A stretch of 64,000 nucleotides of DNA. Source: Candidatus Thalassarchaeaceae archaeon (lineage in GTDB: Archaea; Thermoplasmatota; Poseidoniia; Poseidoniales; Thalassarchaeaceae). The position numbers and the translations under genes are program-made. The notes below the pieces were generated by a model that saw nothing but the letters and a program-made list of their open reading frames with translations, searched no databases and was not told the origin of the DNA. Positions 16,754 to 51,145 of this stretch are shown piece after piece; positions within the stretch are counted from its first letter, which is position 1, and each line of letters begins with the position of its first letter. The DNA lies in the NCBI GenBank assembly GCA_029250605.1, contig JAQXEZ010000014.1, positions 124,001 to 188,000 of the forward strand, written 5' to 3'.

Positions 16754-19700
16754 TCAAATCCGGAACCCGTCGTCTTCCTCGGTATCGTCGATGCCGGCGA
16801 ACCTGACATTGCCCTCTGCGTCAACGAACTGGCCTGCCTTGACTGATTCCCCGTACAGGGAAGACTCGGTTACTGATGCTCTGTTTAGCATGCTCTCTCC
16901 GAGAGAGCTATTCATCCTGCCAATCATCGATTGGAAGATTTGGATTGCCCTATCCCTCTCCTCGGAACCGATCTCGTGGTCTGAGTATCGGGCCTCCTCG
17001 AAGATGGAGAAGAACGTATCTATCTCCCCTGGTGGGACAATTCCTCCCAGCATGTTGTTAATGACGTCCTCGAACTCCCTTGTTGTCTCGAATACCTTCT
17101 TCATCGCACCTTTCATTCTGAAGTACTTGATTAGGTCCTTGTAGCAGGAGAATATGGCCTCGATGTAGTTGTTGGAGGCCTTGAGTGACATTAGTGCGTC
17201 GGTCAGTATCCCTCGAAGGATCTCTACCTTGCGGCGTTCCCTGTAGTTGTTGTACATCATTGCGCCGACTAGGGTCACGGTGGAAAGGGAAATGCCCGCC
17301 AGAACTAGGACTTGGGTAGTCCAAAGGCCTCCGCTGCTAGAGGATGACGGCTCTCCGAGCCTAATCTCGGGAGTGCTGTTCAACCACTGCTCGACGAAGT
17401 AAGGCTTGTTCGCATCGGCCGACTCGAAATGGACCAGAACCCTCCATTTCCCCCCGGGAGCAGACCACTCTGGATGGCCTGGGATAAGCTCGCCTGTGTA
17501 TGGGAAGGAGAAGTTCGCAGAGCCCCTTTCGTTGGTGATGAAAATCTCGACTCGCTCGGTCTGCCATCCCGACCCATTCCAGAACTGCCTGTGGAACTCG
17601 ACCCTCTGGCCCTCCACTGTGAGGTCCAAACGATCCCTGAGAATCGCGACCTCTCCGGCAATGATGTCACCCAATTGGTATCCGGTTGGGCTCGACCAGT
17701 GTTCCTTCAGGAGAATGTCCACCTTGCTTCTGACTAGGACCTCGATGTCGGCTATGGAGCTGTTTAGGACTGGGTTCGGCTCTAGTGCCTCATAGTCGCA
17801 TCCACCTGGCACGTACTTCTCTGGTTCGTATGCTACTCTGACCGTCCTGAAACCTTCGAGGTTGTTGCCGCTTGGCTCGACCCCTCTCCTACTCGGATTG
17901 TCTTCGGGATCTGCTGAGTACCAAACGAACTCGCCGGTTCCATCGCTAGTGAACGCTGTCGCGATGGGCCTGGTATTTACCTCGGGGTCCAGATAGATGT
18001 TAACGCACTTGCCACCGACTGGCTTTCCATTTGACTGGGAAAGCTTGGCATTGATGTGGAATGCTTCTTTGAGGTATAGGACATCGAAGGTTGATCCATT
18101 GGGAAAGGTGTAGGTCAGGTAGTCGGATCTGAAAGGACCAACCTCAGAGACGTCTATCGTGGAGTTTGAGAAAACCGGGAAGAACATCGTCTGTGTCTTG
18201 TTCTTGTACCTGTAGCGATCGTTGTTCAATGGGTCCCAGGAGTTGTACTCGACCTTCACCTTGGCCATTCCCGCATCTACTCCAGCCAGGGGGCAGTTGA
18301 TGTCGAAGAAGCCGTTTCCATCGGTTGCCCCTGGAATGCACGCCTCTACGCCGGTGTCTCCTGCTCTGAATTTCATTCTGTTTTCTATTGGGTCGAATAT
18401 CATCGATCCCATCTCGAAGGTGACTCTGATTTGCCTGTTGGATAGGTTGCCTCCTAGTTCATCGGTTAGCTGGCCAGTGACGATCATTGGCTTCTCCAGA
18501 ATCTGACCGGTGTCTGGGTCTATCTCTGATGTGTAGACGATCTGCTGATCCACATCGAGTTCTGTATTGCCGATCAGACTGAAACCGTCTACTTGGAACT
18601 GGAGGACCTTCCTGTAGTGATCGCTATTCAGGATGGTCACACAGGGATCCCATGCCCCCGATGTGGAGAGCATGCCCGAATCCAGGGGTTCGCAGCCCTC
18701 GTGAGGGAGGTTCTGCTCGAACCTCAGAATCACGTTCACCGGGCCGAATCCGTCTGGGAGGAACGAGTAGGGGTCGTCCTTCAGTAGCTGGGGGTCTAGG
18801 TATCGCCCGTACCCGATTGAGCCCGAAGCAGGGCACTCGACGGAGACTATCTGCCTGTGGGTCCTATCTTCGAAGTCGATTCCTTCGAAGATGACCGTTA
18901 CGTTTCCTCCTAAGTCGTTGCCGCCCGGGCTCTGCATTTCTCCTGCACAGCTATTCAGTACCTGTCCCCCGTCTTTCTCGAACGGGGTTCTGTTATCATC
19001 CGTAACAACGGCGGTGAATTCCCACAAATCGCCGTTTGATCTAATGTTGGGACTCGTGCTTTGGACGTTGATGAACGTCCGGGAGACAACCCATAGGCTG
19101 ACCTCTGCATGGTTTCCTTGGCGGCGTTCGTCTCCTAGATACGTGAACCCGAGGGTGAAGTTCCCGAGGTTCTCTATGTCAGTCAGATTTACCTTGAAGC
19201 GGCCATTGTTGTCCGTTATTGAGATTCCACTGCTCTGGTCCTCCGACCATGTCCAGTTCACGGGGACCTCACGCACCGGTTGGTAGGCGTTGTCAACTAG
19301 TCGAACCTGGACTGACGTGTTCTGCCCTCTGTACAGCCTAGGGAGAGAGCTCAGTTCGGTGAATTCGGTTGTGCCGATTACGGAAACGTTACCATACGCT
19401 CCGGTGGCGGCAAGAACCTGGTCTTGATCGCCTGTGAAGAAGTAGTCAGATTGGCTGAAGTCTGCCCTCACCCCATAGGTTTGCGCCTGCCATTGTGACT
19501 CCCATGTGAATTCATAGTCGAAGGTTGCAAGGCCGTCGACGGGGGTCGGCCACTTGCTGAATTGGGTCTCAGTTGATCCGACGAAAATACCATTCCGGTC
19601 GAAGTCGAACTGAAGTGCTACGGAAATTGGGTTGCCATTTATCTGGTAAACAGGGTCTACCGTCCGGTTCCATACGTGCCCCTTGACCCTAATCTTCTCC

Positions 19701-22700
19701 CCGGTGAACACCTCGGGGACTATCTCGCATCGTACTTCGCTGGATGCTACCAATGGGTCGACTGGGCCGCATGGAGGGGAGTTGAAATCTGCCCCGTTCT
19801 GGAGTGTGATGGTCCAATGGGTCCCATTGGCGGTCAAGAAGGGGGAAAGTGCACCTGCAGCAATTCCCGACAGTGCTGCCGGAGACCCGTCCCATAGGAT
19901 TGGGTAGGGCTTTCCAAGGCTGGCTTCCTCGAACGTAGTTCCGGAGTTTGCCAGAGAGGGAGAGTGGAACAGGGCACGCCAAGCGCCGAAGGACGAGCCA
20001 GTGAACTGGGTAGCGTCCCAGAAGTAAACTGGCCTGAAAGAGGGTGCGAACATTTCCGCCTCGATGTACATCCTGTGCATCGCGCGAATGAAGAACGTGT
20101 CAGTCTTGGATCCCTCTAGATGGGCCCATGGCCACTCGTAGGAGTCGTCAGTACAACTGCCGAGGTCTGGTCTGGCATATCCAATGAAGTTGTAGTCTCC
20201 TACTGGAAGAGTGGTGTTCTTGTATTCATATGGCGCTAGTACGGAGTGCGATCCAACGGGATTCAGGGGCGTGCATGGATTCCACACAATCTCCTCGTAA
20301 CCACCTGTGGGTATTCCAGGGCCATTATCCAGAAGGGAGTTCCACTGTACCTGCTCCCACAGATCCAATGACTGGTTGTATGCCAAAGAAACCCAACCTC
20401 CTGAGTCAGCCCTGTACCCGTTTCCGTATCCATCGTACACCGTTGGTTCAGTAATGTTACCAAACTGTGTCCCAGGGTCGCTGATGGTGAAGGAGACAGG
20501 AGCATGTGCGAGCCTGTTGTCGAAGATCCCACGATTGTAGTCTGCCGTGTAGTGGACCTTGAAGTCCAGCTTCAGTGGCTGCTCGTCGGCTCTGAATCTC
20601 TGTCCGGCGACGAATCCTATGGTGGTGTTCGCCCTGACCTCGACGGGGAATCCGGAGTCACCGATTCCATCGCCATCGGTATCTGACAGGGTTGAGCTGT
20701 AGTCGTGGATGAACATCTCTGTTACCTCGGAGTATACCTCGTAGGTGGTATTTGATCCTACGTCGATGTCCTCTGGGAAAAGGAATTGTCCGACGACGTA
20801 CTCTCCGTTGGCATTGGTCAGCACGTCTATTGTCTCGATAACCGAAGTCCCATTCTCGGCATATCTGATGTGGACCTGCACCGGGAGGTCTGGAGCGGGG
20901 ACGAATCCGGTGTCGTCAAGCCAGAAAACGGAGCCATTGAATATCGCCGGCGTTGTCTCGTCCAACCACAGGACTGATTGAGTATTCAGGGTGATTCTGG
21001 TGGGTATCTTGTCGTCGTGATCCAGGAGGCCGTCGTTGTCGGAGTCCCAATCGGAGCTCAATCCGGAAGACTCCTCGATCTTGTTTGCTGGTGTGGGCCA
21101 GTCTCCCGAGGAGGGGTTGTTCCAGTCCGCGTCTTCCCTGCCGTCGTTGTCGTCGTCCACGTCGAAGTAGTCGGGCCCAGTCGAGTTGTTCGTCGGATCG
21201 GCTAGACCTACGCCCCCTCCGAAGTCATCGTGATCCCAGGGGTTTGTCGATTCTGATCCGTACCTCGAAGGCCAGAGCATCACTTCGTCTTCGTCCTTCA
21301 TGCCATCGTAGTCGTCGTCATCATCCATGTCATCCCTGATACCATCGTTGTCGTGGTCCCATGGGGCTATCGGGAAGTTCAGACAGCAGGTATCATCGAT
21401 TGGGTCGGCCGTTCCTTGCGTATCGTTCAGGTTCTGGAGCTCCAGGGAATTGGGTATCCCGTCCCCGTCCCAGTCGTCGTCAGCCCAATTCAAGATCCCG
21501 TCGTTGTCGTGGTCCCATGGTCTCTGCTCCTCGCCGGTGAAGCAGCCTGGGATCGCTTCCTGGACTTCATCTAGCAACCCATTGTTGTCGTCGTCTGGGT
21601 CCTCGCCGTCAGGCACCCCATCGTTATCGTTGTCCACGTCATAGTACTCGGGGAAGAGGAGTGACTGGCCTAGGACCCCCCGGTCCCATACAGCCTGGTA
21701 GATTCCATCATCGTCCGGGTCTGTATCAAGACCGTCGTCGTCGTTGTCCGCGCAGTTGCTCCCGGTGAAGTAGTACGGCTCGTCCACGTTTGCGTCGTCA
21801 TCGAGGTCGTCGTTGGAGTCGACTTCGAAGAAGTCCCAAACGCCGTCGTTGTCGTCGTCCACGTCGAAGTGGTCGTAGACGATGTCCCAGTCGTCGTCGA
21901 GGTCGTTCGTGTTGTTGTACATGCAGTTCGGGGTATAGAGCACAGAATCATCCACATTGTAGAGTATCTGACCACAGTCTATGTCTGGGTCGACGTCATC
22001 GTTCAACTCGTCTGCAATCTCGTTTGGGAAGAAGTCGCCGTTGTTATCGGAAGTCCATTGGAAGAATCCGAATTGTGTGACACCAAGGTATGCTATCCAC
22101 AGATCTCTGTTGTGCTTCATCTCGGAATACGTGTAGGCCACCGATGGTGAGGGGTTGCTGGTAGGATCGAAGGTGAACCAGAAGCAATTGCTGTCACAGG
22201 AGGCTCTCACTTGTTCAAACGGGTGATTGGCCCCATCGTACGCCCCATCATCCCAGTCAGCGTCCGGTCTCGTGCTGTAAGGGACTGTGAAGGATTGCCC
22301 GCCGGACTGTGTTGGGGTTAGGAGAGGTGCCTTGAACGCATATCCGTAGATGTGCCCACAGAATCTCTCTTGGGTGGCTGAGAGGATTACAGTACCACAT
22401 GAGTTCCCATCAAGCGAACCTCCCATCTTGACATCGTCGACGTCCAGGACTCCATCGTTCCCCTCGTCCTGGTCCCACCAGTCAGGCATCCCATCACCGT
22501 CCTGGTCCACGTCGATTCCATTCACCAATGAGTCCCCATCGTCGTCAATGTCGAAGAAGTTGCCACCGTTGTAGGGGCTCCACTTCATCATCAGGAACCA
22601 GTACATCTCGGGGATTGTTCCGCTGATTGAGTCGAGCGAGGTTGGGTCATATCCGTTGTAGTCCAGCATGAAGCCGTTGTCCGCGTTGAATGGGTTGAAT

Positions 22701-24673
22701 CCCCATGTGAGGTTCCAATAGTAGTGGGGAACTGCTGCGTATGCGTCGCCGTCCTCGGAGCCGTCGATTGCATCTCCATCGTTCTGTGGCCAGCTGTTGC
22801 CCCAGAAGTTGTCTGTGTTGTCGGTGTCTACCACTCCGCAGTTTCCATCATCGGGGTCGTAGAAGTCGTTGATGCCGTCGTTGTCGTCGTCCCAGTCTTC
22901 GTCATTCGCTAGACCGTCTCCATCCACATCGGTATCGATGTCGTTTGCACCGTCATCTCTGTACATTGATCCATTTAGTTCGTGAAGATCCGCATCGTTG
23001 TCCAAGTCACAGTCGGGGTCGATGTCGAGCCAGTCTAGGATTCCGTCTCCGTCGTCGTCAATGTCCACCCAATTGTTCAACCCGTCTCCGTCCCAGTCAT
23101 TGAATCCGGTGTAGGAGGTTCTCCAGAGTACGCATTTGTCACTTGGGTTCTGAGGGTTTGGGTTGGAAACGCTAGCGCAGTCCCAAGTGGCTACCTCTGC
23201 CGATGAGTTGAGTGGGTAGGGGTCCACTTCGTTCTCAAGACCATCGTCGTCGAGGTCCCATGGCTGCGACCCGCCCATCAAATTGTCAGGAGTTTCGGAC
23301 CCGCCCATGTCGGTATCCAGCCAGTCCCACACCATGTCGTAGTCGGCATCAATGGACCTGAATCTGTCATCGTCCAGATCCCCATCATAGTCTATTTCGC
23401 AATCAGTCCCGGGAGTCTGGATATCGATAACAGAACCGTTGAAGACTTGGGTTGGGTAATCTCCCTGTCCGTCTCCGTTCGTGTCTAGTTGCCTGCATGA
23501 GTCAGGGATTCCGTCGTTGTCGTCATCGACGTCATACATGTCTGCGAGACCATCGTTGTCATCGTCAGTATCTGACGAATCGGGAGCCCCGTCGTTGTCG
23601 TTGTCTGGGTCGAGGAAGTTCGGAATTCCGTCTCCGTCGAGGTCGCCATCGACTATTTCTGTGAATGCCTGCACCCTCGGGTGCTCAAGGGCGTGGAGAG
23701 CGACGTAGTCGAGGCCATCCACATAGTCCCCGTAGTCCTCTGGGTCCCATCTCTCCCAGTCATCCCAAAGAATGTCTGAATCGGAGGTGATGAGTGCTGT
23801 CTGGGTAGGGTCCCATGGGTGGATGTCGTCTATGTCGTCTACCCCATCGTTGTCATCGTCCAGATCGAAGTAGTCCTGGATGCCATCGGAGTCGAAATCG
23901 CACGGCCATACGAACTGGTCGATTCTCCCATCGTTGTCATCGTCCTCGTCGTAGGAGCCCCTGCCGGAACCATCGATGTCTTCGTCGGTAATCCCGTCGT
24001 TGTCGTGGTCCATTGGGTTCTGGTCTACCAAGTAGTTGAATCCGACAGCCTGTCCAGTCCAAGGGTGGATAGTACTGGGGTCAACGTGACGGTCCGAAGA
24101 TACGTTCAATGGATCGTTTCCTTGGGAATAGTCCACGGGTCCCTCTAGGATACCGTCGTTGTCGTCGTCCCAGTCGAACTCGTCCTGGATGCCGTCGTTG
24201 TCGTGATCCAGTGGGTCTGTTCCGTAACAACCGTCGAACCTCTCGATTAGGTCATTGATCCCATCGTTGTCGTCGTCCAGATCGTTCAAATCGTCAATAC
24301 CGTCGTTGTCGTGATCCTCTGTGTTGGTCTCCTCTAGGAAGAATCCGTAGCTCGGATCGAGGGTCAAGGCCGAGGTATCCGAGACCTTCCCGTAAATAGC
24401 GGCTGGGTCATTATAGAATGGATCGTGGAATGCTGCGTGTTGGAATGGATTGGTGGATGCAGGTTGGTTTTGACCTTCTCCCTGTACTGGTCCGCCAATC
24501 TGCTCAAGTTGCTGGTAGGCCGTTCTCATGGGCGTGTCATCGGTTCTCGTTCTTTCCGGGGAATCGCCTGATTCAGGCATGATTGAGAGCTGTGTGCTCA
24601 GGAGCATCAATGCGATTATGGAAATCGCTGGTAGTATTCTCTTGTTTGTGTTTCTCTCTTCCTTGCTAATCAT
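16754..24673 (-). CDS. Giant cell-surface protein with calcium-binding Asp-rich (TSP type 3-like) repeats and cytoplasmic tail
   Basis: This chain of about 2639 residues starts at the ATG at 24673. An N-terminal signal segment (ILPAISIIALMLLSTQLS) sends it across the membrane. Roughly residues 90-1220 are packed with Asp-rich units of the form D-x-D-D-D-N-D-G; the exact hexamer DDDNDG occurs at least nine times. Such thrombospondin type 3-like units bind calcium and stiffen the chain. About 1230 residues of beta-sandwich material follow (for example VPVNWTWSEDQSSGISITD). One membrane helix near residue 2450 (TTQVLVLAGISLSTVTLVGA) precedes a cytoplasmic tail of about 170 residues, mostly helical and resembling DUF4129 (FEEARYSDHEIGSEERDRA). 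It is probably a surface adhesin or stalk; no enzyme domain is recognised. Confidence 0.85.
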   Translation of the reverse strand: MISKEERNTNKRILPAISIIALMLLSTQLSIMPESGDSPERTRTDDTPMRTAYQQLEQIGGPVQGEGQNQPASTNPFQHAAFHDPFYNDPAAIYGKVSDTSALTLDPSYGFFLEETNTEDHDNDGIDDLNDLDDDNDGINDLIERFDGCYGTDPLDHDNDGIQDEFDWDDDNDGILEGPVDYSQGNDPLNVSSDRHVDPSTIHPWTGQAVGFNYLVDQNPMDHDNDGITDEDIDGSGRGSYDEDDDNDGRIDQFVWPCDFDSDGIQDYFDLDDDNDGVDDIDDIHPWDPTQTALITSDSDILWDDWERWDPEDYGDYVDGLDYVALHALEHPRVQAFTEIVDGDLDGDGIPNFLDPDNDNDGAPDSSDTDDDNDGLADMYDVDDDNDGIPDSCRQLDTNGDGQGDYPTQVFNGSVIDIQTPGTDCEIDYDGDLDDDRFRSIDADYDMVWDWLDTDMGGSETPDNLMGGSQPWDLDDDGLENEVDPYPLNSSAEVATWDCASVSNPNPQNPSDKCVLWRTSYTGFNDWDGDGLNNWVDIDDDGDGILDWLDIDPDCDLDNDADLHELNGSMYRDDGANDIDTDVDGDGLANDEDWDDDNDGINDFYDPDDGNCGVVDTDNTDNFWGNSWPQNDGDAIDGSEDGDAYAAVPHYYWNLTWGFNPFNADNGFMLDYNGYDPTSLDSISGTIPEMYWFLMMKWSPYNGGNFFDIDDDGDSLVNGIDVDQDGDGMPDWWDQDEGNDGVLDVDDVKMGGSLDGNSCGTVILSATQERFCGHIYGYAFKAPLLTPTQSGGQSFTVPYSTRPDADWDDGAYDGANHPFEQVRASCDSNCFWFTFDPTSNPSPSVAYTYSEMKHNRDLWIAYLGVTQFGFFQWTSDNNGDFFPNEIADELNDDVDPDIDCGQILYNVDDSVLYTPNCMYNNTNDLDDDWDIVYDHFDVDDDNDGVWDFFEVDSNDDLDDDANVDEPYYFTGSNCADNDDDGLDTDPDDDGIYQAVWDRGVLGQSLLFPEYYDVDNDNDGVPDGEDPDDDNNGLLDEVQEAIPGCFTGEEQRPWDHDNDGILNWADDDWDGDGIPNSLELQNLNDTQGTADPIDDTCCLNFPIAPWDHDNDGIRDDMDDDDDYDGMKDEDEVMLWPSRYGSESTNPWDHDDFGGGVGLADPTNNSTGPDYFDVDDDNDGREDADWNNPSSGDWPTPANKIEESSGLSSDWDSDNDGLLDHDDKIPTRITLNTQSVLWLDETTPAIFNGSVFWLDDTGFVPAPDLPVQVHIRYAENGTSVIETIDVLTNANGEYVVGQFLFPEDIDVGSNTTYEVYSEVTEMFIHDYSSTLSDTDGDGIGDSGFPVEVRANTTIGFVAGQRFRADEQPLKLDFKVHYTADYNRGIFDNRLAHAPVSFTISDPGTQFGNITEPTVYDGYGNGYRADSGGWVSLAYNQSLDLWEQVQWNSLLDNGPGIPTGGYEEIVWNPCTPLNPVGSHSVLAPYEYKNTTLPVGDYNFIGYARPDLGSCTDDSYEWPWAHLEGSKTDTFFIRAMHRMYIEAEMFAPSFRPVYFWDATQFTGSSFGAWRALFHSPSLANSGTTFEEASLGKPYPILWDGSPAALSGIAAGALSPFLTANGTHWTITLQNGADFNSPPCGPVDPLVASSEVRCEIVPEVFTGEKIRVKGHVWNRTVDPVYQINGNPISVALQFDFDRNGIFVGSTETQFSKWPTPVDGLATFDYEFTWESQWQAQTYGVRADFSQSDYFFTGDQDQVLAATGAYGNVSVIGTTEFTELSSLPRLYRGQNTSVQVRLVDNAYQPVREVPVNWTWSEDQSSGISITDNNGRFKVNLTDIENLGNFTLGFTYLGDERRQGNHAEVSLWVVSRTFINVQSTSPNIRSNGDLWEFTAVVTDDNRTPFEKDGGQVLNSCAGEMQSPGGNDLGGNVTVIFEGIDFEDRTHRQIVSVECPASGSIGYGRYLDPQLLKDDPYSFLPDGFGPVNVILRFEQNLPHEGCEPLDSGMLSTSGAWDPCVTILNSDHYRKVLQFQVDGFSLIGNTELDVDQQIVYTSEIDPDTGQILEKPMIVTGQLTDELGGNLSNRQIRVTFEMGSMIFDPIENRMKFRAGDTGVEACIPGATDGNGFFDINCPLAGVDAGMAKVKVEYNSWDPLNNDRYRYKNKTQTMFFPVFSNSTIDVSEVGPFRSDYLTYTFPNGSTFDVLYLKEAFHINAKLSQSNGKPVGGKCVNIYLDPEVNTRPIATAFTSDGTGEFVWYSADPEDNPSRRGVEPSGNNLEGFRTVRVAYEPEKYVPGGCDYEALEPNPVLNSSIADIEVLVRSKVDILLKEHWSSPTGYQLGDIIAGEVAILRDRLDLTVEGQRVEFHRQFWNGSGWQTERVEIFITNERGSANFSFPYTGELIPGHPEWSAPGGKWRVLVHFESADANKPYFVEQWLNSTPEIRLGEPSSSSSGGLWTTQVLVLAGISLSTVTLVGAMMYNNYRERRKVEILRGILTDALMSLKASNNYIEAIFSCYKDLIKYFRMKGAMKKVFETTREFEDVINNMLGGIVPPGEIDTFFSIFEEARYSDHEIGSEERDRAIQIFQSMIGRMNSSLGESMLNRASVTESSLYGESVKAGQFVDAEGNVRFAGIDDTEEDDGFRI
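21000..24330 (-). repeat. Degenerate coding repeats encoding Asp-rich calcium-binding units
   Basis: On the plus strand this stretch is full of GTCGTTGTCGTCGTC-like runs, the reverse complement of codons for Asp, Asn and Gly. The spacing between units is irregular and the intervening text differs, so this is a protein-level repeat inside the giant surface gene and not a CRISPR or satellite array. The low complexity also creates many spurious antisense frames. Confidence 0.8.
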
Positions 24674-24790
24674 GCAAATCACTGCTTACCCTAGGGTAGG
24701 TTCGTGGCCTGAATCTTCGTGCTTATGAATGGGTGGCATCCTGCGGATAGTTCCGTATCACAGTGGCGTCGATGTATCATCTCGAGACAG

Positions 24791-43659: not shown

Positions 43660-46600
43660 TCAGAAGACCATGTCATCGTCGTCGGAGCCGGGAAGAAGGC
43701 TGCTCAGTTCGGAGAACCTGGCCAGGGCTTCGACTCTCCTACCCCAAATCACGTAACCTGCGACTCCAAAGAGGGAGAAGGTTGCTCCGATGATTATGGC
43801 TGGTACTGCATACCTGACGACCAGTTCCCTTCCGACATCGAGTGAGCCTAGGGGGGATTTCATGTTCCCAATCCTCTCGATGTTGTTGTTCTCATCTGTC
43901 TCTACGATGTTGTTGTCTGGATCCACTACCACGACGATATCGTGGTTCCCTGGCTCTACCATGTATAGCAGGGTGATTGGGTCGGATTGATCGGTATCGG
44001 ACTGCCCGATGGGCATAATGGCGTTGACAATCTGCCTGTAGACGATGTTTTCTTCTTTACATCCGTTCCTCTTGATATCCGACTCAGACTGGTCCTTGCA
44101 CAGGATTATGTTTACGTCGGTAGCATGGGCATTCCCTCTGTTTGTGATGAAGACGTTGATGGAGAGCATTTCCCCAATTGCGGCCTCTTTGATTGGAGCT
44201 ATGGCGCTCTCAAGGACCAAATCCGGAGCTCTTAGTCGCATCTCTAGAATCTGTTCGTTGGTGTCGCAATCAGGAGGGAGATTGTCCGGGAAGCCGTCTG
44301 AATTGCTATCCAGAGTGCATGAGTCGGTCCAAACTTCGGTCTCATCGAAATCCCCTCCCTGATCGGATGAACCGTGCATAGAGAGCACCTTGATTCCCAG
44401 GTTCCTATCGGTTAGAGACGCGTCTGGAGCGACTGTCACGATGACTACCAACTGCAAGGTAGTGTATGGTTGCATCATTGGGAGAGTGAGTGTGTTAGCT
44501 GCAGTGTCATAGCAGTAATCTGGACCTTCTCCTTGTGACAACTGTTGGGTGATTTGGTTCTCTTCTTCTACAGTTAACTCCACGCATGGCTTCTCCAAGG
44601 GGAATTCCGTACCGAATCCCTCGAGCAAGGCGTAATCAATCTCCCATGTGCTGAGTGATCCGAGACCCGGTCTCACGGACCATACATTGGTTACATCATC
44701 GTAGGTGTGATTGTGAATTGTTGGTTGGTCCTCGACGTTCCCGAAATTGGATACGTTGAGCGTGAATCTTACGATTCTGCTTGGCGCTGTCGTCTTAATC
44801 TTGCTCTCAACCGTTGGATCTAGTGAGATTCGCATGTCATGGAATTCTATGATTGTGGCTCTAATTACTATCTGATCCTGAACCTTGGTTCCCTCACACG
44901 GATCCTCTGTGCAGGGGAATGGCTCCTCGCTCAGTACATTGAAGGTGATTGTGTACTCGCCTGCTAGGGTCTTTACAGGGACATTGATGTAAATTGGCAC
45001 TGTCTGGGCTTCGTCCCTGTTCAATTCCTCGAACAGAATCCTAGGGATGTCCATATCCCAGACATGGGCCCCTCCTAGGCTATCTACAATTGATTCGATG
45101 GTGATATCATACCTGTCCTGTCCGTTCCCTAGGTTGGAAACCGATGTATTCATCTGATAGGATTGTCCAGGATACAGATCGACAATGGTTTCTGGAACTG
45201 TTGACTCGAGTTCGTACCTCTGGACCACGTTCGTCAGAATCAGAACTGAGTCACGGACCTTTGGAGTGCCGTCCAGATGTGCTCGCACGGTTACTGATTC
45301 GCCTATCCCGGCGGTTGCATTGAATGGGGAGCACATCTCTGCACTCACAGTGTAGGTGGTTCCTACTTGGGCCCAGTAAATGTCCTGATCAGCCGAGGAC
45401 GGGCTTCCTGGCCACTCAGAGAAGTCCAGGTCCACAGTCCAATGATCGAATCTCCAAGAGTTGATGTCAGCATCTGCAGGTCTGTCCATCGGAGCCCCCG
45501 GGGTTGTGAAGACAATGTGGCCCGGAGTGAAGTATTTGTTCACTTGAATTGGGAAACTAGCACACTCTCCGGGGAGAACGTACAACTTCGTATCACCGAT
45601 GTCGAAGACGATGTTACCGGTTGTCCTGATTGAGACATTTATCCAAAGTTCTAGAACGTCGAAGGTCCCTCTGTCGATAGAAAGGACCGGTTCGCCAGTA
45701 GACCACCCCTTCAGATAGATAGCGAATGTGCCTGGGTCCTGAGACTCGGGGACGCTGACCTTCAGATTTCTCGTTACAGACTGTCCGGGATCAAGGGATA
45801 GGAGGAGTGGGAAGTCTATGCCCCATCCAAATGGCAATGCCCACTCATTCTGGCCCTCCAACGTAGCTGGATCGTAGAATGCGAATGTGTCATACACGTT
45901 TCCGGTGTTCTTGATTGAGATAGAGAATACTGCTGACTTGCCTTGCTCGACATCTACCTGGAAGTGGCTAGTGTCAAGTTCGATGCCATGCACTACATCC
46001 ATCAAAGTCAGAAGGGTGAGTTTGTTACGGATTGCTGGATCCTTTGCGGATGTCGCGATTATGCTTATTTGGGCCAATTCATCGTCTTTCGCTTGGTAAA
46101 TCGTGGGCGTTCTGACTCTGAGATATAGTGGGTCGATAGCTCCGCCATCTAGGAAAACAGGAGTCGAGTCGAAAATTGGCGTATTATTGGTCATGTAGAA
46201 AAGGGTGGCTGTCCAATTGTTGGGGACTCCCTCCATGGTGACTGTGAATGTGTCTCTAACCAACTCGGCTGGTCCGGGAGTCGGGTTCGCGATTGTGATG
46301 TTGAAGGTTGTAAGTTCACCGGGTTGGATTGTGTGATAGAATGTCTCAGCATCAGTAGGGCATTCGTATGGGTATCCCTCTATGTTTGCATTTGTTTGGA
46401 TTTTCTCATCACAAGCAAGCGAGAGGTCAACTAAACCAGTGAGCACGTGAACATAACAGAGAGTCCACTTGTTTGCATTGGAACCCTCCCAGTCACATCT
46501 CTTGTCGGACCATCCTATGTGCGCACCACTACCTAGATCGTTTGCAAACGCCGGGGGCATTCCCCTGTCAAGATTGAAATCAGGGAATAAGTGATGTCCG

Positions 46601-48927
46601 TCGGCGGTGTTGCATTCTGGCTGACACATTGCTGGGCCGAGTTTGTCGGATGTCCAATTGCTGACCTCTTGGACCTCCCATGGATCAAGGATTGCCGATG
46701 CTGCTGAATTTATCGGGAATCCTTGTGGATACTTTTCGTTAGTATTGTTGAGCCTGGCGTACATTATTGTCTCCTGCCATTCTGTAATACTATAATCAAT
46801 CCAAGAAAGGTGGACATTGTCGAAAGAATCGGTCAGAATTTGAGGGGCTACCGAGCTGGGAGCAAATGGGTATTCTTCGGAGGCACCCTCGCATTGTTCT
46901 GGAGTAGAAATTGCGCTTGATGCAATCTGTTTAATTCCGTAGGCAGGAAGGCCTTCGGGTACCCCATCCCACTCTGCGGCCCCCCTCAATCGAAGCCTGG
47001 TGTAGTAAATCTCGTAGGCCCCTTCGATATCGATTCCTCCTGTGCGGCCATCGCAACCGGGATAGAGTCTGCCATCCTGCCAAGCTAGGTGAGTGTTACC
47101 GGAGTTATCGATAGAAATCGAAGGGTGCAGACTGTATGCTGGATTATTGGTAATCTGAGTGTCATTCACGACTATTAGATGCCCGTATCCCTGTCCATCT
47201 TCCGAGGGTCCTAGGTCCTCGACGTAATATCCATTCTGATTTGCTTCGGTCCCGGAATCCCCTCGGCTCCAGCCTGGCCATGGATTCTCCAATAGGGCGT
47301 GAGGGTCCAGAACCGTCATGTAAATCTCTCGTGAGTTGTTCGTGGCTAGGTAAACCATGGCCTCAACCATGATCTCTAGTTCGGAAGAAGACCCAGCGGT
47401 AGTTGGGAACTGGTACATTTGTCCCTCCGCAGTAGTGGTTCGGGTTGTTGCTCCGTTGCATGTTCTGGTATTGAGACCCGAGCCTACGGGGCACTGCGCC
47501 ATATCCAGCATGTAGCTGCCTACTGCCGTGTCAGAACCAGCCCAGAGAGGGTATGGCTTAGTCTGGGCCAAAACACATGCATCGTGTGCTTGGTTGATGC
47601 TCGAGGTGTCGTCGTTGTCCATTGGGGTGCCACCATAGGGGCCCTCATCGGAAATCGGTATGACTACCCGAGTGGCGTTGTCGTTCCACCGGTGGTCTAG
47701 TGTGGTTGGAGGGTTTGCTGCTAGTCCTTGTCTGCCCTGAATGTCCCTATATGAGAGGCATGCCCAAGTCGATGCTGGTCCCCAAAACTCGCTGTAGTAC
47801 CCCCCATCAGCTGGGAGGTTGGTAGCCTGATTGTTGTAAACGACCTCGGTTAGCTCCCTGATACCACCCGAGGAGTCTCCTGGCCCAAGTGGGGTGTTTC
47901 TGGGTCCTTGGCTTCCAGAGCCCCCGGTCTGGTAGGCATCGGCACAGTTTCCGCTGGTTGCTGCTGCAGGCCAATTTCCACTTAGCGCGTAGAGTGTCTC
48001 ATATACGCTCATATTAGCGCTGACCAGCATTGGCTTCAATCCCACGAAATACCCTCCACTGGCGAAGTTCCCACCGTAGAATACTGCGCACATGTCTGCC
48101 CATTCTGCGTTCATCGAACCTGAGGTGTCGATTGGGACGACCATCTCTACTTGGCCGCCTCTTGTGTCATCCCAGACAATCTGTACGAAGTCGTTGATGT
48201 CGACTGCGATGTCTGGGTGTCCCTTCTGACCAAGAATGGGGGTAAGGAGCGTGTTGTCAATCTCAACAATTACTACTCTAGCGACTTGGTCTACTGAGAG
48301 CATCTTGTAGTAAATCTGTGACTGCTGATAGTATAGCTCAAGGGGCTCGAACGAATCCTCCCATACGATGTGGGGATTGTTTTCTGAGTCTACGTCAATA
48401 GCTGGCCAATCCCGATTCTGTGGGTTGTTTGCGACTTCGTAGTCGTTTGGAACTACGGACAGGGTTGAGTCTAGAGATGCGTCCCCACTCTGATCGTCTA
48501 GTGAGGGGTCGATAAGCGTGTACATGATCTTGTACTGCCCGGCCCTATCGGTCCAAACAACGTGAACCATGTCATCACTGTCAACAGTGACATCGGGATG
48601 CCACGCTCGATGAGCTCCCGGATCAGAGATTTGGGTCTCTGAGATCAGGGTTTCCCCCCTTGGATCTAGCATCTTGTAATACAGGTGATTTGTGTTACGA
48701 CTCCAGACAACATGCACGTTTCCTTGAGAGTCCGCATCCATTGCCATCATTCTGTCGTTGTGCACACTGCTCTGAACGACTTCTATTGGATCTGTGACTA
48801 CGATGTCACTGGCACTTGCTGGAGATGAGAACGATGCTAGGATGCTGAGTAGCATCAACATAACAATGGCCGTGCCACTCCTCTTACTCGAAATTCCTTC
48901 CTTGTTGGAGGAACGGTCGTACTGCAT
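43660..48927 (-). CDS. Giant secreted, membrane-anchored protein with propeller-like repeats, nested vWA-like domain, NEW3 and CARDB domains
   Basis: From the ATG at 48927 (another at 48936) the chain has about 1755 residues. The signal peptide is TAIVMLMLLSILASFSSPASA. The first 650 residues carry repeats of the form GNVHVVWSRNTNHLYYKML and DMVHVVWTDRAGQYKIMYTL, like beta-propeller blades. Within them, near residues 265-530, lies a vWA-like region with MIDAS motif PIDTSGSMNAEW. Then come NEW3-type beta-sandwiches (VEQGKSAVFSISIKNTGNV), a CARDB-type domain (VVVVDPDNNIVETDENNN), one membrane helix near residue 1700 (AVPAIIIGATFSLFGVAGYV) and a short acidic cytoplasmic end. It is probably a cell-surface adhesion or polymer-binding protein. 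The frame extends upstream to 49155, but that part lacks a signal and overlaps the next gene. Confidence 0.85.
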   Translation of the reverse strand: MQYDRSSNKEGISSKRSGTAIVMLMLLSILASFSSPASASDIVVTDPIEVVQSSVHNDRMMAMDADSQGNVHVVWSRNTNHLYYKMLDPRGETLISETQISDPGAHRAWHPDVTVDSDDMVHVVWTDRAGQYKIMYTLIDPSLDDQSGDASLDSTLSVVPNDYEVANNPQNRDWPAIDVDSENNPHIVWEDSFEPLELYYQQSQIYYKMLSVDQVARVVIVEIDNTLLTPILGQKGHPDIAVDINDFVQIVWDDTRGGQVEMVVPIDTSGSMNAEWADMCAVFYGGNFASGGYFVGLKPMLVSANMSVYETLYALSGNWPAAATSGNCADAYQTGGSGSQGPRNTPLGPGDSSGGIRELTEVVYNNQATNLPADGGYYSEFWGPASTWACLSYRDIQGRQGLAANPPTTLDHRWNDNATRVVIPISDEGPYGGTPMDNDDTSSINQAHDACVLAQTKPYPLWAGSDTAVGSYMLDMAQCPVGSGLNTRTCNGATTRTTTAEGQMYQFPTTAGSSSELEIMVEAMVYLATNNSREIYMTVLDPHALLENPWPGWSRGDSGTEANQNGYYVEDLGPSEDGQGYGHLIVVNDTQITNNPAYSLHPSISIDNSGNTHLAWQDGRLYPGCDGRTGGIDIEGAYEIYYTRLRLRGAAEWDGVPEGLPAYGIKQIASSAISTPEQCEGASEEYPFAPSSVAPQILTDSFDNVHLSWIDYSITEWQETIMYARLNNTNEKYPQGFPINSAASAILDPWEVQEVSNWTSDKLGPAMCQPECNTADGHHLFPDFNLDRGMPPAFANDLGSGAHIGWSDKRCDWEGSNANKWTLCYVHVLTGLVDLSLACDEKIQTNANIEGYPYECPTDAETFYHTIQPGELTTFNITIANPTPGPAELVRDTFTVTMEGVPNNWTATLFYMTNNTPIFDSTPVFLDGGAIDPLYLRVRTPTIYQAKDDELAQISIIATSAKDPAIRNKLTLLTLMDVVHGIELDTSHFQVDVEQGKSAVFSISIKNTGNVYDTFAFYDPATLEGQNEWALPFGWGIDFPLLLSLDPGQSVTRNLKVSVPESQDPGTFAIYLKGWSTGEPVLSIDRGTFDVLELWINVSIRTTGNIVFDIGDTKLYVLPGECASFPIQVNKYFTPGHIVFTTPGAPMDRPADADINSWRFDHWTVDLDFSEWPGSPSSADQDIYWAQVGTTYTVSAEMCSPFNATAGIGESVTVRAHLDGTPKVRDSVLILTNVVQRYELESTVPETIVDLYPGQSYQMNTSVSNLGNGQDRYDITIESIVDSLGGAHVWDMDIPRILFEELNRDEAQTVPIYINVPVKTLAGEYTITFNVLSEEPFPCTEDPCEGTKVQDQIVIRATIIEFHDMRISLDPTVESKIKTTAPSRIVRFTLNVSNFGNVEDQPTIHNHTYDDVTNVWSVRPGLGSLSTWEIDYALLEGFGTEFPLEKPCVELTVEEENQITQQLSQGEGPDYCYDTAANTLTLPMMQPYTTLQLVVIVTVAPDASLTDRNLGIKVLSMHGSSDQGGDFDETEVWTDSCTLDSNSDGFPDNLPPDCDTNEQILEMRLRAPDLVLESAIAPIKEAAIGEMLSINVFITNRGNAHATDVNIILCKDQSESDIKRNGCKEENIVYRQIVNAIMPIGQSDTDQSDPITLLYMVEPGNHDIVVVVDPDNNIVETDENNNIERIGNMKSPLGSLDVGRELVVRYAVPAIIIGATFSLFGVAGYVIWGRRVEALARFSELSSLLPGSDDDDMVF

Positions 48928-49006: not shown

Positions 49007-49633
49007 CTATACCCACTCGAGAGGGTCGAAGTCCTTGCCAAATCCGCCGGTCTCGTCTGTATCAATCTCGGATTGCCTCGTTTGAGGTCGTCTCGATGAT
49101 CGGCCAGTCTTCTTTCCTTCCCAATCATCAACGGGCCCTGGCTTCCCCTTGCCATTGCCGAAACCGTACTTGATCTGGTGGATTAATGAGAGTTTTGTCA
49201 GCCAAACCTTTCTCATGCTTTGCATAAACTCATTCTGTGTAAGTCCGTCTAGCCAAACGGGTCTTGAAAGATTGAATGCCTGAAGAGGGCCCGCCACTCC
49301 ATCTTTTCTTTTGCCAACATGGAGGACCCAATCAAGATCTGAGGACGTCATTCTTATTCTGGTTTCATGAAGCCACTCCTCCCAATCCTCTGATTCCTCT
49401 TTGGCCATTTCTTGCATTGATTCCTGCTGCCCTTCGTCTACTCTTGTGATTGAATAGACCAATACAAGATTCCTATTCTTCGGAATTACAATGTTGAAGA
49501 GGTGCCCTTGCTTTGTAGGGGGGTATCGTACATGAAGGTGGATTATCGCTTGGGGGTCTTTGACCTCTCTGGCTTCTAGCCTCTCCCCTTCCAACCAAGA
49601 CCTGATTGAGTCGGCCGCCTCGCTATGGTTCAC
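49007..49633 (-). CDS. Conserved-looking hypothetical cytosolic protein
   Basis: This is a 208-residue protein without signal or membrane segments. The first 150 residues look like a compact alpha/beta domain (SIRSWLEGERLEAREVKDP; HLFNIVIPKNRNLVLVYSI; MTSSDLDWVLHVGK), vaguely like archaeal DUF2299 proteins from memory; this is unverified. The last 50 residues are charged, low complexity and probably disordered (GKKTGRSSRRPQTRQSEID). It lies between the giant protein and the acyltransferase on the same strand. Confidence 0.6.
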   Translation of the reverse strand: MNHSEAADSIRSWLEGERLEAREVKDPQAIIHLHVRYPPTKQGHLFNIVIPKNRNLVLVYSITRVDEGQQESMQEMAKEESEDWEEWLHETRIRMTSSDLDWVLHVGKRKDGVAGPLQAFNLSRPVWLDGLTQNEFMQSMRKVWLTKLSLIHQIKYGFGNGKGKPGPVDDWEGKKTGRSSRRPQTRQSEIDTDETGGFGKDFDPLEWV

Positions 49634-49657
49634 GAATGTTGCAGGAAGCGGTCCTAT

Positions 49658-51145
49658 TTAGAGCAAGTTGAGGTTGGTGCTCACGTCATCAATCAGTTCA
49701 AGGAGCCTCTTTCCTTGTTCAGAGGACGCTAGGCGTGCACTCTTAGTGGAGTTAGAGAAATCGGTCCAGCAATCATATCCAAACAGGAAGACTATGTTTG
49801 AGGTGTGAATGAGGAAGACTATGGCCACGGCTAATCCAAGATTAATTGGTAGTGAAACCATGGATGGCGTGATGAGGATCATGGACGCCACAATTGCTAT
49901 GGGGGTCCAGAATAGGATCGGCGAGAACATCCCAGCTAGGAAGTGATATGTGGTCCTGGCGTCTATTCCTTCGTCTGTCCTGTCTCCCAGGTACCATGCG
50001 AAGAATGCCTGGGTTCCAGTAGACGGGATTGTGACTGGAGCCGCGAGTGCCATCAAGAAAATGCCTGCTAAACCGCTGATCCACATCCTGCTTGTCTTCA
50101 GATTCAGTCCTTCTACCGAGCGTCCATCCAGATCGTGGTCGTGAAGTATCTTTGCAGCTTCTATGGAAGGAGCCAGCAAACCCTCCTGGGGTTCTCTATC
50201 TGCAAGCGAGACCCGGACATCCCTTGCTGCGAGTACTTCGTCCTTGAACGAGCCGAGGGGTTTGTTGGCCAGATTTGCTCGGATATGCCCTATCAGGTGC
50301 CAAGCGCGGTAGGTTTCCCAATCTGGGGCGTCTGGAGTGACCTCTGAAAGCGCTGAGAATAACCTATCACGCAGAGAGTTTACTTGTTCAGATGGTGGTT
50401 CCTCCCATGCTCCCGATGACAATCTCTCTGCCGCACCTGGAACTTCTGGAGCATCTACTGGGATGGGGTCTTGGAACTCAACGAAAGCATCTGTCCTGAA
50501 CCAATAGTGATATCGGAAGTGGAGGCCAATGGGCTGAAGTGCTGGGGTTGGGAGTCCCCTGTGTTGTGCGATAGAGGCTGCGTTTAACGCGAACCTCATA
50601 GGACCCGTCTTGAATCTGTGCAGTCTTGAGTCCTGATGGGACTTTCCCTCTGGCATCACTAGGGCATTGTGTCCTGAAGCGATGCAATTTGTCATTGTCA
50701 ACAGTGTCCTGTCGTTGATTTTTTTCGCATACTCTTCATCCGAAACCCCATTTTCTATCTCTGACCTCCTAATAACCGGCTGAGAGCCCATTCTCCTTGA
50801 GAACCAGCCTATTAGGGGCATTGTCATCAAGTCATGTCTGCCCATTGAGATGACTCTGCGATCCTGAGAATGGACCATTGTCGTGGGGTCGACCAGACCA
50901 TTTAGGTGGATAGCCGACAGGACTCTTCCACCCTCGAAATCGGGAAGTTGGTCGTAATGTCTCCTTCTGAAAATGTACCTTAGACCGATGCCCATCATCA
51001 ATACGATAATCTTCCAGAAGAATGGATTTCCGGGGTGTTTGCCGGTGTGGTCCCAAGGAAGGCGATCGAGTTTCTTTCTTCTCAGTTTCATTGCTCCACT
51101 GGACAGTTCTGGTTCGATATTGGGAGCACCATGCATATCGGGCAC
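49658..51145 (-). CDS. PlsC-like phospholipid acyltransferase
   Basis: The protein carries the glycerolphosphate acyltransferase fold. The catalytic block is AIHLNGLVDPTTMV (His-x5-Asp spacing as in the GPAT-like LPLAT branch), and the substrate-binding block is LVMPEGKSHQDSRLHRFKTG. Such enzymes add fatty acyl chains to glycerol phosphate lipids at the membrane. About 495 residues are present: an N-terminal helix (FFWKIIVLMMGIGLRYIF), the catalytic domain to about residue 300, then three or four C-terminal membrane helices (WISGLAGIFLMALAAPVTI; LFWTPIAIVASMILITPSMV; LGLAVAIVFLIHTSNIVFLF). The start is a GTG at 51145 or the ATG at 51136. An acyltransferase is unexpected beside classical archaeal ether lipids. 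Confidence 0.85.
   Translation of the reverse strand: MPDMHGAPNIEPELSSGAMKLRRKKLDRLPWDHTGKHPGNPFFWKIIVLMMGIGLRYIFRRRHYDQLPDFEGGRVLSAIHLNGLVDPTTMVHSQDRRVISMGRHDLMTMPLIGWFSRRMGSQPVIRRSEIENGVSDEEYAKKINDRTLLTMTNCIASGHNALVMPEGKSHQDSRLHRFKTGPMRFALNAASIAQHRGLPTPALQPIGLHFRYHYWFRTDAFVEFQDPIPVDAPEVPGAAERLSSGAWEEPPSEQVNSLRDRLFSALSEVTPDAPDWETYRAWHLIGHIRANLANKPLGSFKDEVLAARDVRVSLADREPQEGLLAPSIEAAKILHDHDLDGRSVEGLNLKTSRMWISGLAGIFLMALAAPVTIPSTGTQAFFAWYLGDRTDEGIDARTTYHFLAGMFSPILFWTPIAIVASMILITPSMVSLPINLGLAVAIVFLIHTSNIVFLFGYDCWTDFSNSTKSARLASSEQGKRLLELIDDVSTNLNLL

Follow-up and report, generated by a model that had tools for sequence, protein, structure and literature searches.

A diverged vWA domain nested in the propeller of a membrane-anchored surface protein conserved across Poseidoniales

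We describe a 1755-residue surface-type protein from a Candidatus Thalassarchaeaceae archaeon (Poseidoniales) in which a diverged vWA domain interrupts one of the seven blades of a BNR-like propeller. The gene is the minus-strand open reading frame 48927..43660 of a 64,000-nucleotide window, the whole stretch of DNA analysed, which covers positions 124,001–188,000 of contig JAQXEZ010000014.1 (assembly GCA_029250605.1). The arrangement consists of known parts in a new domain order; it is real, well conserved and found throughout the order. No report describing this protein was found in the literature that we searched. From the N-terminus to the C-terminus the protein comprises a signal peptide, the propeller, a β-sandwich stalk with NEW3 and CARDB domains, a transmembrane helix and a short tail. 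An alternative upstream start of the same reading frame, at 49155, overlaps the DUF2299 gene (49007–49633); the start at 48927 yields a normal signal peptide and is the more plausible of the two. The features, in window coordinates, are as follows.

48805..48927, minus strand: signal peptide, residues 1–41; hydrophobic stretch 17–39 ending SPASA, by hydropathy; 30% median identity
48145..48804, minus strand: propeller blades 1–3 and the first half of blade 4, residues 42–261; from the blade HMM, Foldseek and the model
47332..48144, minus strand: nested vWA-like domain, residues 262–532; from hhalign to free-standing vWA domains, Foldseek against the PDB and cysteine conservation
48112..48129, minus strand: MIDAS motif 1, DTSGSM, residues 267–272; invariant in 81/81 Thalassarchaeaceae rows
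47764..47784, minus strand: candidate MIDAS motif 2, WGPASTW, residues 382–388; Ser/Thr at 386 or 387
47638..47652, minus strand: candidate MIDAS motif 3, SDEGP, residues 426–430; D427 and E428 invariant
46408..47331, minus strand: second half of propeller blade 4 and blades 5–7, residues 533–840; from the blade HMM
45628..45987, minus strand: NEW3-like stalk domain, residues 981–1100; PF10633, 8.2e-7, best stretch 1027–1070
44923..45381, minus strand: choice-of-anchor-T-like stalk region, residues 1183–1335; NF041740, 63.8 bits, under the cut-off of 70
43879..44229, minus strand: CARDB stalk domain, residues 1567–1683; PF07705, 2e-14
43741..43824, minus strand: single transmembrane helix, residues ~1702–1729; by hydropathy
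43663..43740, minus strand: cytoplasmic tail with RRxEA..AExSSL; conserved in both Poseidoniales families

The position of the insert was established with an HMM of the propeller blade, for which 35 uninterrupted blades were taken from archaeal proteins outside Poseidoniales (loci L081–L100). Seven blades were detected in the window protein, with matches at residues 65–92, 108–145, 175–210 and 234–258 before the insert and at 598–645, 692–729 and 795–812 after it, the last being weak. The first-pass annotation had described a repeat interrupted by about 265 residues at DTSGSM, resuming with REIYMTVLDPH and continuing into further blades. We find the repeat QIVWDDTRGGQVEM starting at residue 249 (window 48183), ahead of an insert of 271 residues (262–532) that opens with MVVPIDTSGSM and has DTSGSM at residue 267 (window 48129). 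The repeat text resumes with REIYMTVLDPH at residue 533 (window 47331), and the blade HMM confirms the blades that follow. As encoded, blade 4 gives a truncated match (17.5 bits, HMM positions 2–26), while excision of residues 261–533 in silico gives the rejoined sequence WDDTRGGQVEIYMTVLDP, which scores 25.7 bits over HMM positions 2–38. Since the match halts at HMM position 26 and is completed by the excision, the insert lies within the hairpin that joins the two central strands of the blade.

In a Pfam search the propeller gave a weak match to BNR_4 and none to any FG-GAP family. The pLDDT of the full-head model is mostly 70–90 in the first half of the propeller (residues 42–261), and a Foldseek search of the PDB with this model returned sialidases, fucose lectins and glycoside hydrolases with E values of 2e-6 to 1e-4. 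One of these, PDB entry 4irt (TMt 0.60), aligned over 783 columns that span both flanks of the insert. Such matches are what would be expected if the propeller were the working part of the head, as a glycan-binding lectin of sialidase fold or a glycosidase, with the vWA domain as an accessory docking domain. A motif scan of the whole protein found neither RIP nor RLP, and the propeller has no canonical Asp box, the sole Asp-box-like match being at residue 1520 in the stalk, and a reading of the propeller as a sialidase enzyme is weakened by both absences. The vWA domain is also better conserved (75% median identity) than either half of the propeller (69% and 63%). We regard a catalytic or lectin-like propeller as the principal function as rather improbable, and favour a head in which the propeller would act as a rigid mount for the vWA domain.

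Three lines of evidence, namely profile homology, fold matches in the PDB and conservation of the MIDAS residues, agree in identifying the insert as a diverged vWA domain. A Pfam search with the insert of the window protein gave no VWA match, and an insert profile searched against PDB sequences likewise found none. A profile of 19 insert homologues did detect relatives outside Poseidoniales, in one other Thermoplasmatota family, with E values down to 6e-13. Five free-standing vWA domains from that family (loci L194–L198) aligned to the insert profile with hhalign at 99.8% probability (E 1.8e-30), the WGPASTW of the insert aligning with WGPGTSW. All five match Pfam VWA (PF00092), most of them weakly and the best, a single member, at 2e-5, and the set could be aligned with integrin I domains in the PDB across most of their length. 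These domains belong to the same vWA subfamily as the insert, sharing the DxSxSM, ExWGxxxxW and SDE motifs (read as DTSGSM, ESWGPGTSW and PISDE), but differ in being about 200 residues long, with fewer cysteines, and in lying between Ig-like repeats without a surrounding propeller. We note that in the giant Ig-like proteins that carry this subfamily, ExWGxxxxW stands where the second MIDAS loop is normally found.

The first-pass annotation had proposed structure prediction as a check on a vWA fold nested in the propeller, a model without a Rossmann-type fold counting against it. Modelled with AlphaFold apart from the propeller (pTM 0.72, pLDDT 62), the insert has the strand and helix order of a doubly wound vWA domain. 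Its top Foldseek matches in the PDB are the integrin β I-like domain, CMG2, the αM I domain and the TFIIH vWA domain, and nearly all of the matches are vWA domains, with scores that are modest (E 7e-4 and weaker, best TM-scores 0.3–0.5). The alignments available for prediction were shallow, with homologues at ~59% identity and above, and in the full-head model the pLDDT of the vWA domain is ~50, which is too low for reading disulfides or the face of the propeller that carries the domain. The model thus did not overturn the vWA reading. With its confidence so low, the fold is assigned chiefly from the profile chain, with which the fold search agrees. It could be argued from the low confidence and the missing Pfam match that DTSGSM is a chance occurrence in an unrelated domain. 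The profile link to vWA domains and the dominance of vWA folds among the structural matches make this very improbable and, together with the blade periodicity, support the nested vWA domain.

The residues of a MIDAS (DxSxS, Ser/Thr and Asp) are all present in the insert. Conservation was counted over 81 Thalassarchaeaceae rows, in every one of which D267, T268, S269, G270, S271, M272, W382, G383, P384, D427 and E428 are identical. Every row also has a Ser or Thr at 386 or 387, so that the exact second MIDAS position is ambiguous. Judging from the motif, the insert probably binds a divalent metal ion. Six cysteines (280, 328, 390, 451, 479 and 490) are invariant, barring one undetermined residue. 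Two paralogues (L075 and L076) carry degenerate forms of the motif, DSSGGM and DSSTGM.

The head was matched in 295 of 319 Poseidoniales genomes, including 34 of the 35 best-quality ones, and in none of eight genomes from another family of the same class. A scan of GTDB contigs gave 346 relatives; the 80 kept were Marine Group II/Poseidoniales or labelled only Euryarchaeota or Thermoplasmatota. No relative was found in the viral contigs searched, and no vWA insertion was seen in the propeller homologues found outside Poseidoniales. DTSGSM is present at all 72 Poseidoniales loci inspected, from both families, some loci sharing a genome. A survey of the insertion in homologues, which had also been called for, places it at the identical site in 20/20 aligned diverse proteins, paralogues of 28–46% identity included, and the insertion must thus predate the paralogue duplications. 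The nesting is not a matter of chance, given the common site, the occurrence of DTSGSM at every locus inspected and the invariance of D267, S269, S271 and D427.

Several paralogues show further insertions. In L073 (~562–840), L078 (~549–720) and L079 (~552 onwards) an extra insertion inside the vWA domain, before its last helix, resembles a MAM/concanavalin-type domain in its text (FESGYLTNGWG...AWVDDVTIP). In L073 and L079 this insertion itself contains a further ~115 residues, so that domains are nested three or four deep. Searches of Pfam and the PDB with the MAM-like insertions gave no match. Part of the L073 stalk (1348–1514) resembles the thrombospondin-3 repeat cohesion protein MtsC (NF047638, 43 bits, far under the cut-off of 350), which agrees with reported thrombospondin genes in Poseidoniales. 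An apparent extra segment of 107 residues in another homologue (L046) proved to be a run of undetermined bases and no insertion. Elsewhere in the window, a 2642-residue reading frame (16754–24682, minus strand), whose matches to Big_1, MG4 macroglobulin and DUF4129 are weak, is possibly a second giant surface protein.

Both Poseidoniales families share the gene order acyltransferase, DUF2299, surface-protein gene, with an HTH gene in convergent orientation and topoisomerase VI coming next; for the family other than Thalassarchaeaceae, this was read from one single-contig genome. We note that in Thalassarchaeaceae the DUF2299 and acyltransferase genes (window 49007–51145, minus strand) nearly always precede the surface-protein gene, with which they perhaps form one transcription unit. 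The protein is encoded by a core gene, almost universal and constant in position, and is not an obviously fast-evolving adhesin. The purpose-built capture or adhesion machine conjectured in the first-pass annotation would have to be reconciled with these features and with the conserved cytoplasmic tail. Median identities to Thalassarchaeaceae orthologues are highest for the NEW3 region (85%), followed by the vWA insert at the value given above; the rest of the stalk is at 61–70% and the signal peptide at 30%.

The stalk and anchor are as the first-pass annotation had them: the NEW3 and CARDB matches both pass the Pfam cut-offs, and hydropathy indicates one C-terminal transmembrane helix. The tail motif RRxEA..AExSSL is common to both Poseidoniales families, and Thalassarchaeaceae tails end in an acidic stretch plus Phe; the tails of the paralogues differ. 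Conservation of the tail suggests a cytoplasmic partner.

For an adhesin, such near-universality and constant gene order are out of the ordinary, and a structural role is also compatible with them. The main alternative to an adhesin is accordingly an S-layer-like envelope protein, in which the vWA domain and stalk would make lateral contacts from copy to copy without any outside ligand. Conservation that peaks in the NEW3 region of the stalk rather than in the head would suit such a protein, as would the invariant cysteines, which suggest a rigid domain. A lattice, however, needs no conserved cytoplasmic tail, and the invariance of the MIDAS is a further point against this interpretation, which we consider unlikely but worth keeping in mind.

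In our view, the protein is rather more probably a core surface receptor or adhesin of Poseidoniales, with a metal-dependent head on a stalk. The vWA domain, the MIDAS of which looks complete, would have entered the hairpin of blade 4 in an ancestor common to all Poseidoniales. The resulting head would be mounted on the β-sandwich stalk and held by one transmembrane helix, with the short conserved tail inside the cell, where it may engage a partner. Most likely, a divalent metal ion held by the vWA domain would coordinate an acidic group on a ligand outside the cell.

The closest parallel in layout is with the α subunits of the α-I integrins (α1, α2, αL, αM and others), which likewise have a MIDAS-containing vWA domain inside a seven-bladed propeller, a β-sandwich leg, one transmembrane helix and a short cytoplasmic tail. 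In these subunits the propeller is built of FG-GAP repeats and takes the vWA domain between blades 2 and 3 (PMC3192720), whereas the archaeal insertion is inside blade 4 of a BNR-like propeller. The archaeal domain also differs in its six conserved cysteines and extra loops. Integrin α subunits pair with a β subunit; no such partner is known for the archaeal protein, the flanking genes of which encode DUF2299, acyltransferase and HTH proteins. As neither the insertion point nor the FG-GAP repeats of the integrins are found here, the protein is not an integrin. The α-I insertion has been dated to early chordates (PMC3192720, PMC12422189) and, with the propeller family and insertion point both different, the archaeal insertion is independent and convergent. 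By analogy, the archaeal protein may work like an integrin. A fuller version of this analogy, in which it would be an independently evolved counterpart that passes a ligand signal from the MIDAS through the propeller, stalk and transmembrane helix to the RRxEA..AExSSL tail, is one to which we give little credence; if it were true, these archaea would possess an adhesion receptor capable of outside-in sensing.

Other surface proteins offer partial likenesses. The PilY1-type adhesins at the tips of type IV pili are surface proteins that also contain both a vWA domain and a propeller, but in tandem, whereas in the archaeal protein the former is nested. Archaeal and bacterial surface proteins of the sialidase/BNR and RIVW types have the repeat text and the predicted propeller fold in common with it, RIVW repeats having been described previously (PMC2447325); the archaeal head differs from the sialidase/BNR propellers in the motifs that it lacks.

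To our knowledge, Poseidoniales have no cultured representatives. They are reported to be more abundant than any other planktonic archaea at the ocean surface, and discussion of their attachment has centred on flagella (archaella), thrombospondins and flotillin (PMC6461757). Given its near-universal presence, its anchor and its probable metal-dependent binding head, the present protein is a tangible candidate for mediating contact with particles or other cells. As a separate case of a vWA domain placed in a stalked seven-bladed propeller, it allows one to test whether this layout is a generally useful way to build a binding head. The near-universal presence of a protein with an integrin-like nested head indicates that the marine Group II archaea probably grip something outside the cell.
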